From: Candidatus Cloacimonetes bacterium HGW-Cloacimonetes-3
GTDB taxonomy: Bacteria; Cloacimonadota; Cloacimonadia; Cloacimonadales; Cloacimonadaceae
Assembly: GCA_002840645.1 (NCBI GenBank)
Contig: PHBO01000020.1
Location: forward strand, 1-32,249
Length of the DNA: 32,249 nt
Direction of reading: 5' to 3'
Below the pieces are notes generated by a model. The model was not told the origin of the DNA. It did not search any database and saw nothing but the letters and a program-made list of their open reading frames with translations. Shown here one piece after another: positions 6,705 through 18,709 of the stretch (the stretch's first letter is position 1; each line of letters opens with the position of its first letter). The position numbers were made by a program, and so were the translations under genes.

Positions 6705-7373
6705 CTAATTCTTCTCTGCACCAAGCTTTTTGAATATATACAGGGAGTATGGCAGCGGGAACAGCAATATCAGCATTGCCACTACCCCGCTTATCTCCTG
6801 GAAGGCACTATTGTGCAGCAGGATAAAGCCTTTCGCGATCATTATCAGCCCGCTGATGGCAAACAACCAGCCGCCCAGGCGGTGAGTGCGTTGCCACACA
6901 TCTTCATTGCCAAGCGTCCAGGGTGTTTTTATCCCGATAAAGAAGTTGCGCGGGGTTTTGGGCATCAGATTGCCCAGGAATATGAACAGCAGCCCGATAA
7001 GGATGAGCATAAACTGAATCTCAGGCACGACACCGGTTTGCGCCAGGTACAATGAATAAACACTGATCAAAGCAAAAAAGAGCACCAACACCAATGTAAG
7101 AGGCGGCAGCAGCCGTTCAAAGCGTTTTTCGTACTTCTTGTACCAGGGGGAGTACCAGGGCGTGAGAAATAACAACAGGAACAAGCCTATGCTTAATCCT
7201 GACCATAACAAAAGTGCTGTCGTTTTGGTGGAATAGCCGTCGATCTCATTTTTGATATTCCAGTGAGTGGGTACTTGGGCGTCTGCGGGCAGGTTGTAGG
7301 CAAAATAGCCTAAGACTACCAAGTGTAGCACTATTACTAACAATGACCATTTGAAATTACTTAGTCGTTTCAT
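6705..7373 (-). CDS. sdpI: SdpI-family membrane protein
   Basis: A 222-residue integral membrane protein with about six hydrophobic segments. The N-terminal half has the DUF1648-like phrase 'LPADAQVPTHWNIKNEIDGYSTK'. The C-terminal half has the SdpI signature 'GNLMPKTPRNFFIGIKTPWTLGNEDVWQRTHRLGG'-type block (about residues 134-168). In Bacillus subtilis, SdpI is an immunity protein and signal receptor that sequesters the repressor SdpR at the membrane. No toxin gene is seen here, so the role may be general envelope stress sensing rather than immunity. Its first 17 nt overlap the sdpR-like gene, a sign of co-translation. Confidence 0.85.
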   Translation of the reverse strand: MKRLSNFKWSLLVIVLHLVVLGYFAYNLPADAQVPTHWNIKNEIDGYSTKTTALLLWSGLSIGLFLLLFLTPWYSPWYKKYEKRFERLLPPLTLVLVLFFALISVYSLYLAQTGVVPEIQFMLILIGLLFIFLGNLMPKTPRNFFIGIKTPWTLGNEDVWQRTHRLGGWLFAISGLIMIAKGFILLHNSAFQEISGVVAMLILLFPLPYSLYIFKKLGAEKN

Positions 7374-7647
7374 CTTTAACCTCGCTTTTATCTATTACTT
7401 GCATTATCCAGCTGATGATATCCTCAAACACAGAAGTATTGAGGGAATAGTAAATATACTGTCCGCGTTTCTGAGCATAGATAAGATCTGCCGTACGCAG
7501 AATCTTCAGATGCTCACTAAGCGCAGCCCCGCTGAACTCGAAATGCTGCCCGATCTCACCCGGAGTAAGCGTCTGGTGCTTCTTCAGCAGCATCAGAATC
7601 TTGCGGCGGTTCGGGTCTGCAATTGCCTTGAAAAAGGAATCTGACAT
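7357..7647 (-). CDS. sdpR: ArsR-family repressor (SdpR-like)
   Basis: A 96-residue winged-helix protein. The pattern 'FKAIADPNRRKILMLLKKHQTLTPGEIGQHFEFSGAALSEHLKILRTADLIYAQKRGQYIYYSLN' is typical of ArsR repressors. It has no metal-binding ELCVCD box, which fits the SdpR branch that responds to SdpI instead of metals. The start is fixed by GGGAGG about 7 nt ahead of ATG. It probably represses its own operon through the palindrome just upstream. The pairing with an overlapping sdpI gene makes the identification strong. Confidence 0.87.
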   Translation of the reverse strand: MSDSFFKAIADPNRRKILMLLKKHQTLTPGEIGQHFEFSGAALSEHLKILRTADLIYAQKRGQYIYYSLNTSVFEDIISWIMQVIDKSEVKDETTK

Positions 7648-17607: not shown

Positions 17608-17637
17608 TTGACAAAAATCCAGGTGCAAACAGGTTTG
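17608..17637 (+). promoter_or_regulatory. FCB-type promoter of the membrane-protein cassette
   Basis: TTGACA (17608-17613), 20 nt, then TTTG (17634-17637) in GTTTGCAT. It gives a leader of about 25-30 nt before the ATG at 17670. The -7 box lies inside the palindrome at 17624-17639. Confidence 0.6.
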
Positions 17638-17653
17638 CATCATAAACTGGTTT
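17624..17653 (+). promoter_or_regulatory. Tandem operator-like palindromes
   Basis: TGCAAAC-AG-GTTTGCA (17624-17639) is a perfect 7+2+7 palindrome. A second, shorter copy AAAC-TG-GTTT (17644-17653) follows, with centres 17 bp apart. The first covers the TTTG box of the promoter. The winged-helix protein encoded at 18386 is the obvious candidate to bind here, as autoregulated cassettes often do. Confidence 0.6.
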
Positions 17654-17669
17654 GCCAAGGAGAGACGTG

Positions 17670-18269
17670 ATGGAAAATGACCTTATAACTGCTACCAGAA
17701 ACAAAGTACAACGCGAGCAACAATATGCTGGCGGGAAATCTTTCTTTATGGCGGGAACAAATCTCATTGTAGTTGTTACAGCCGTCCGGTATTCATACTA
17801 CATTTTGCTGGCCATAATTCCTATCTTGCTGCTTAACCTGTACATACGGAAGCATGTTATACTTCCGCGTATAGGATATGTGCAGATAAAGCGAGAACCG
17901 GCATTCAGGCCTTCGTTGTGGTACTTTTTGGCAGCCATTGCCATCGTGCTGGCCGTAGGTTTTGTTGCTGCTCTGGGTGCAGGAGAGATGTCCATGCTCA
18001 CCAGACAAGTATGGGCTGGAGTGATGGTAAGCGCAGTGCTGTTAATCATGCTTGTGTTCACAATTAGTTATTTGCCCAGGAGCGAGGTAAACATCCTTAT
18101 CAGTTACGGGATTCTATTGGCAGCGCTTGTTTTGACCTTCCTGATAGATATGCCGGAGAATGCAGGATACCTGATAGCGTTGGTTTGGGGAAGTGCTAAC
18201 ATAGTGTTGGGCTTGCTACAGTTTTTAATGTTTCTGAAAACACATAAAAGACTAAAAGATGAAGACTGA
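17670..18269 (+). CDS. Multi-spanning membrane protein, unknown family
   Basis: A 199-residue protein with about six hydrophobic helices, among them 'NLIVVVTAVRYSYYILLAII', 'WYFLAAIAIVLAVGFVAAL', 'GVMVSAVLLIMLVFTISYL', 'ISYGILLAALVLTFLI' and 'ALVWGSANIVLGLLQFLMFL'. The N-terminus (ENDLITATRNKVQREQ) and C-terminus (KTHKRLKDED) are charged and probably cytoplasmic. No conserved catalytic motif is seen. The start at ATG 17670 follows AAGGAGA by 6 nt; a TTG at 17652 lies upstream of that site and is rejected. The gene is first in a cassette with a small ORF and a winged-helix regulator, all overlapping. This is an arrangement often used by proteins that sense membrane state, but the role here is unknown. 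Confidence 0.75.
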   Translation: MENDLITATRNKVQREQQYAGGKSFFMAGTNLIVVVTAVRYSYYILLAIIPILLLNLYIRKHVILPRIGYVQIKREPAFRPSLWYFLAAIAIVLAVGFVAALGAGEMSMLTRQVWAGVMVSAVLLIMLVFTISYLPRSEVNILISYGILLAALVLTFLIDMPENAGYLIALVWGSANIVLGLLQFLMFLKTHKRLKDED

Positions 18270-18396
18270 TATTGTATCCCAAACTAAGGATGAAATCCTC
18301 TCAGAACACGAGTGCAGTATCGCAAACACAGTGGCAGGAATACGGCTTTTAGTGCGCTTTATCAAGAGCCATCCGGTGGTTAACAATGAAACCTGA
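18259..18396 (+). CDS. 45-residue small protein bridging two genes
   Basis: ATG at 18259 lies 11 nt inside the end of the membrane-protein gene, and its TGA (18394-18396) lies 11 nt inside the regulator gene. The three genes use three different frames. The peptide begins MKTDIVSQTKDEILSEHECS and ends IRLLVRFIKSHPVVNNET, a helix-like charged and hydrophobic mix with one Cys. I do not recognise it. Exact fitting into the gap with short overlaps on both sides favours a real coupled gene. Lack of a strong ribosome site and the small size keep confidence moderate. Confidence 0.42.
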   Translation: MKTDIVSQTKDEILSEHECSIANTVAGIRLLVRFIKSHPVVNNET

Positions 18397-18709
18397 TGAT
18401 GCAAAGGCAGAAGCCAATGTCGATGATATCGATCGCATAATCCACGAGCCTGCGCGCCTGAACATTATGCTCTACCTGTATGTGGTGGAAAAGGGCGATT
18501 TCACCTACCTGCTGCATAAAACCGGGCTGTCCAAAGGCAACCTGAGCGTCCAGCTTCAAAAGCTGGAACAGAGCGGATATGTGGAAATCACAAAGGAATT
18601 TGTGGAACGCATCCCGCATACCCTGGCAAGCCTTACCAAACAAGGCAGACGAGCCTTCGAGCTTTACAAAGAAACACTGATAGATATCTTGCAAGCATCC
18701 GGGAGTTGA
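18386..18709 (+). CDS. Winged-helix transcriptional regulator (MarR/ArsR-like)
   Basis: A 107-residue DNA-binding protein. 'IDRIIHEPARLNIMLYLYVVEKGDFTYLLHKTGLSKGNLSVQLQKLEQSGYVEITKEF' contains the recognition helix and the start of the wing. This is the layout of the 'winged helix DNA-binding domain' group that is often encoded beside a small membrane protein. 'LASLTKQGRRAFELYKETL' forms the C-terminal helix. There are no metal-binding cysteines. GGTGG about 6 nt ahead of ATG is a weak ribosome site, so coupling to the preceding frame is likely. Its most probable target is the palindrome pair in front of the cassette. Confidence 0.82.
   Translation: MKPDDAKAEANVDDIDRIIHEPARLNIMLYLYVVEKGDFTYLLHKTGLSKGNLSVQLQKLEQSGYVEITKEFVERIPHTLASLTKQGRRAFELYKETLIDILQASGS

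Follow-up and report, generated by a model that had tools for sequence, protein, structure and literature searches.

What is the 45-codon open frame that lies between a membrane gene and a winged-helix regulator gene in this DNA, and what kind of unit contains it? The window (the whole stretch of 32,249 nt that was analysed) is one entire contig of a 2.68 Mb genome in 32 contigs. We consider it likely that the locus is an autoregulated two-gene operon, made up of a six-helix membrane protein and an HTH_34 regulator, and that what lies between the two genes is the wreckage of a second, duplicated membrane gene. The features on which the argument turns are, in window positions:

17608-17613, forward strand: TTGACA, upstream promoter element, recognised by sequence
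17624-17639, unstranded: perfect 16-bp palindrome TGCAAACAGGTTTGCA, formed by an outer half-site and the left half of the central operator
17626-17654, unstranded: four-half-site array CAAAC-N2-GTTTG-N5-YAAAC-N2-GTTTG, the only exact match in the genome
17633-17647, unstranded: central operator GTTTGCATCATAAAC, GTTTG-N5-YAAAC, which is the portion that the family conserves
17670-18269, forward strand: membrane gene, 199 aa, frame 0 modulo 3, with an N-terminal helix (2-18) and six long helices
18259-18396, forward strand: small frame of 45 codons, frame 1 modulo 3, probable remnant of a second tandem membrane-gene copy
18259-18312, forward strand: small-frame codons 1-18, membrane-family N-terminal helix, on weaker evidence
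18316-18390, forward strand: small-frame codons 20-44, membrane-family C-terminus
18386-18709, forward strand: winged-helix regulator, 107 aa, frame 2 modulo 3, HTH_34 (PF13601), PH1061-like

The coordinates bear out a preliminary description in which all three reading frames are in use and 11 nt are shared at each junction (18259-18269 and 18386-18396). For the membrane gene, whose listed ORF starts at TTG 17652, we took the ATG at 17670 as the start, with AAGGAG upstream and 7 nt between. An intact frame whose start and stop overlaps are like those between co-translated genes speaks for a dedicated small protein that signals between the membrane protein and the regulator, as had been proposed. 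We hold such a protein to be very unlikely, however, since the 45-codon frame is missing at all 20 junctions that we measured in relatives (G011 included), where the two genes meet directly, overlapping or lying no more than 11 nt apart, with no space left for such a frame; an interruption of the frame in relatives had been named in advance as what would speak against it. Spacing was taken from the membrane stop to the regulator start, with start codons chosen by eye; the 28 membrane proteins compared gave 19 measured junctions, eight having no measured regulator start and one (G022) no regulator match in its locus. Among the Cloacimonadota the genes overlap by 8-20 nt at 11 of 13 junctions and are separated by 11 nt at the other two, and the exact 11-nt overlap seen in the window recurs in five of the 20 relatives. 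No homologue of the 45-residue protein was found in 59 other genomes at E<0.05, and one of the seven weaker matches (E 0.06-0.68) is the C-terminus of the membrane relative in G021. Its sequence is, moreover, explained by the ends of a membrane gene, and resembles at both ends those of the neighbouring membrane protein.

Profile comparison identifies residues 20-44 of the small frame as the C-terminus of the membrane family. A profile built from the C-terminal 45 columns of the alignment of 28 membrane proteins, with the window left out, matched these residues at 21.4 bits, a score that none of 5000 shuffles equalled (best 2.9). Higher scores were reached by 21 of 1513 other short ORFs of the same DNA, 19 of which are tails of aligned family members, while the other two (L081 and L065) are, by the family profile, tails of further full or partial members; the next ORF below the small frame, at 20.0 bits, is a Lokiarchaeal tail fragment (L097). 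The likeness extends to DNA, where the 3′ end of the small frame agrees with the 3′ ends of relatives at a mean of 22.0 of 42 nt (0 of 10000 codon shuffles as good). The family C-terminus stands in the small frame at the same distance from the regulator ATG as in relatives, and a ATCCGGTG stretch is found 7 nt before that ATG, likewise in G004, G019 and G015. Because the proline that the family carries near its C-terminal end is present in the small frame and missing from the first membrane gene of the window, it is the small frame, and not the first gene, that carries the ancestral junction with the regulator.

The correspondence of residues 1-18 with the N-terminal helix of the membrane family is shown more weakly. 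An ungapped, start-anchored comparison with the membrane protein of the window scored 31, which was equalled by three of 20000 permutations and by none of the 1513 ORFs, figures uncorrected for the nine comparisons made, of which four were good overall; the other good scores were 27 (G065), 25 (G004) and 23 (G066), and no signal was seen with G052, G021, G015, G027 or G022. The similarity to the membrane protein of the window peaks at residue 18, which is the end of the predicted helix 2-18. An N-terminal profile HMM missed the small frame (-2.4 and -1.7 bits), as might be expected of a chance open frame in spacer DNA with an accidental likeness to membrane-protein ends, and short frames are indeed common (7.5 kb contains 86 with 30 aa or more). 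Such an accident seems to us highly improbable, given that the C-terminal score is reached by no shuffle and by no natural short ORF apart from membrane-family tails, and that head and tail occur in the right order, in the right frame and at the right distance from the next start codon. From the absence in relatives and the membrane-family ends, therefore, the 45 codons look like a second tandem membrane gene from which about 155 internal codons are missing.

Outside the window, 28 loci have both genes, and seven of them (L073, L057, L078, L082, L083, L084 and L097) carry extra membrane-gene copies. Copies lie before and after the regulator in L073, with two partial copies on each side, L057 has two copies in one frame, and L083 has three. 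In the tandem loci G053/L082 and, from Hermodarchaeota, L083 and L084, the same regulator has two or three complete genes of this membrane family immediately before it, whereas in the window the second copy is cut to 45 codons. The Lokiarchaeal locus L097 holds one full copy and, directly before it (L097:2144-2314), a 56-aa ORF that matches model positions 169-201 (33 positions) at its end, a second, independent tail remnant.

A tandem duplication would have given the order membrane1-membrane2-regulator, and an in-frame loss of about 155 codons from membrane2 would then have left the 45-codon remnant, with the junction that starts the regulator kept. We infer this deletion, because we found no genome in which the second copy of this lineage is still intact. 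The organism might instead possess a full second membrane gene whose middle was lost in assembly, tandem similar copies being a typical site of collapse and the window being one contig of a 32-contig assembly. We think this quite unlikely, since collapse usually merges copies at shared sequence, whereas in this contig the first copy is whole and the remnant has divergent ends of its own, and since a profile search of the genome detected no second full copy elsewhere. If the frame is the remnant of a deleted gene, its present role is likely to be that of keeping the read-through junction that starts the regulator, in that it would keep ribosomes running from gene 1 to the regulator start (translational coupling). 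That it also yields a peptide product of its own is possible but unsupported. It is unlikely that the remnant, a helix and tail without the membrane core, works as a free decoy or tether whose binding to the regulator gives the operon a constant leak; if true, a small regulator would have arisen from a duplicated sensor by loss of its middle part.

The first membrane gene is itself a complete member of its family, matching the HMM of 28 relatives over positions 1-200 of 202 (73.9 bits). Its structure model (mean pLDDT 81.7) has seven helices, and a fold search of the PDB with this model returned nothing usable (best E 0.82); from the charge pattern and the six-helix model, we would guess that both termini are cytosolic. 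The protein matches no Pfam family at E up to 1, and at E up to 10 only FA_desaturase (7.4 bits) and TgpA_N (6.3 bits); the small frame has no match in Pfam, and neither of the two has one in NCBIfam. DUF6056 was considered for the family and rejected: one member matched it at E 8.2e-5, among scattered weak matches in which no Pfam family was found in more than two of eight aligned relatives. The membrane protein was matched in seven of 60 genomes, the window's own included, and of the 124 genomes of the phylum that were searched with a profile of eight membrane proteins, 20 have the family, while a scan of named genome contigs with the membrane protein as query gave no match.

The regulator scores 87.8 bits against HTH_34 (PF13601), for which the curated cut-off is 27, and is therefore a member; a profile of eight regulators matches PDB 1ub9 (PH1061) at 46.2 bits. 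It was matched in 21 of 60 genomes, counting that of the window, and a regulator-profile scan of named genome contigs returned 31 loci, in 22 of which the same membrane family, by profile, stands beside it. By record title these 22 include Cloacimonadota, Methanocella, Anaerolineae, Acidimicrobiia, Thermoplasmata, and Hermod-, Hod- and Lokiarchaeota, though single placements may be mis-binned because the records are metagenome-assembled, and the relatives, which include close-kin pairs such as G066/G065, G092/G093, G075/G074 and L086/L089, are not independent. The closest relatives of the window in this survey are Cloacimonadota by title, and the pair, with its closely set junction, is found again in other phyla. 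The nine loci without the membrane family comprise seven from Hydrogenedentota, L068, which begins at a contig edge, and L079, which has no such gene upstream. In the Hydrogenedentota loci (L087, L088, L090, L091, L093, L094 and L095) the HTH_34 regulator overlaps a different multi-helix protein. The same pair is present in L098, a Bacteroidota-titled contig, where the regulator sequence is divided among three frames and only part of the membrane gene is matched, so that the locus is decayed or poorly sequenced. A second class of HTH_34 protein, with a C-terminal extension, occurs in many Cloacimonadota (G000:C4:92915-93193, i.e. L035, and L022, L023, L025-L028, L031, L034 and L036), followed by a gene that we take to be TldD/PmbA-like.

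Upstream of the pair, the perfect 16-bp palindrome of the preliminary description is present (17624-17639), with a partial copy 17 nt on, a 12-nt direct repeat of 92% identity. TGCAAACAGGTTTGCA has its sole exact match within the window here, and with up to three mismatches it matches twice against a shuffle mean of 2.26; it is the exactness of the palindrome that stands out, since mismatch-tolerant matches are no commoner than in shuffles. Read as CAAAC-N2-GTTTG, the window scores 10 of 10, which none of 400 shuffles of its upstream region reached, but this register is perfect in only two of 25 relatives (G052 and G093), and the widely conserved dyad is GTTTG-N5-CAAAC. What had been called a compact, self-regulated unit stands as to the gene pair and an upstream inverted repeat, both conserved across phyla; the operator register had been set half a repeat off.

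The aligned upstream regions, from bacterial and archaeal contigs, show the dyad as STTTG-N5-CAAAS, of which the window has nine of ten positions. Over the 25 non-window regions the best scores sum to 219, against a mean of 171 and a maximum of 182 in 400 dinucleotide shuffles, a comparison that is partly circular, the pattern having been picked from the sequences on which it was scored, several of them from close kin. At least nine of ten positions are matched in 14 of the 25 regions and eight in seven more. The four that score 7 or less are G027, G022, Herm83a and Loki97; the last two are not first in their runs but stand behind other copies, and G022 has no adjacent regulator, whereas G027 has no such excuse. 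The G022 locus (L055), a full membrane gene with neither a regulator match beside it nor the operator, is a natural negative control. Because the pattern was chosen from the same sequences, perfect 5-bp inverted repeats were counted for every spacer length between 0 and 13: of 26 regions, 15 have one with spacer 5, and five each have one with the neighbouring even spacers 4 and 6. The counts for spacers 3 (10), 7 (12) and 9 (7) are raised too, which a centre shared with spacer 5 would lead one to expect.

A TTG precedes the operator by 24-25 nt in the window and seven relatives (G004, G066, G065, G052, G021, G015 and G027) and by 30-31 nt in five others, which makes 13 of the 15 listed loci; G075 and G074 are the two that differ. 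A sigma-70 promoter was set aside, since by eye there is no TATAAT-like box 17 nt after TTGACA; TTG followed by TTTG presumably fits a promoter of the Bacteroidota type, with elements at -33 and -7. Within the genome the four-half-site array has a single exact occurrence, and allowing up to three mismatches adds one other place, which favours a local autoregulator.

Our best model, built on analogy with the SdpI/SdpR system, pairs a local autorepressor with a membrane sensor; its logic is SdpRI-like, the proteins belong to other families, and an extra copy has decayed. A dimer of the regulator would bind the central repeat and repress its own promoter, and the membrane protein may sense an envelope signal and lift the repression, probably by retaining the regulator at the membrane. 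In Bacillus subtilis, the immunity membrane protein SdpI sequesters the autorepressor SdpR at the membrane (PMC1626106). As in that system, a polytopic membrane protein and an autorepressor share one operon, here as predicted from the genes. Unlike in SdpI/SdpR, the membrane gene comes first, the regulator best fits HTH_34, and no SdpI domain (PF13630) was found in the membrane protein by Pfam at E up to 1. We know of no toxin gene partner for this pair, again unlike SdpI/SdpR. Elsewhere in the window there is, as previously described, a true SdpI/SdpR-like pair (6705-7647, reverse strand), in which an SdpI-domain membrane protein (68.8 bits) and an ArsR-type regulator (HTH_5, 42.6 bits) are encoded by overlapping genes.

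In the parts of the literature on HTH_34, PF13601, PH1061, 1UB9 and Cloacimonadota promoters that were available to us, we found nothing on this membrane/regulator module and no published function for PH1061 or PF13601. The analysis brings to light a membrane protein paired with a winged-helix regulator, with an operator that can be recognised and in contigs of both bacteria and archaea; no description of this pair turned up in the literature searched. It also removes a candidate small protein and puts a traceable story of gene decay in its place. For the annotation of small ORFs, the membrane and HTH_34 pair advises caution, in that a tidily overlapping open frame may be the hinge of a deleted gene.
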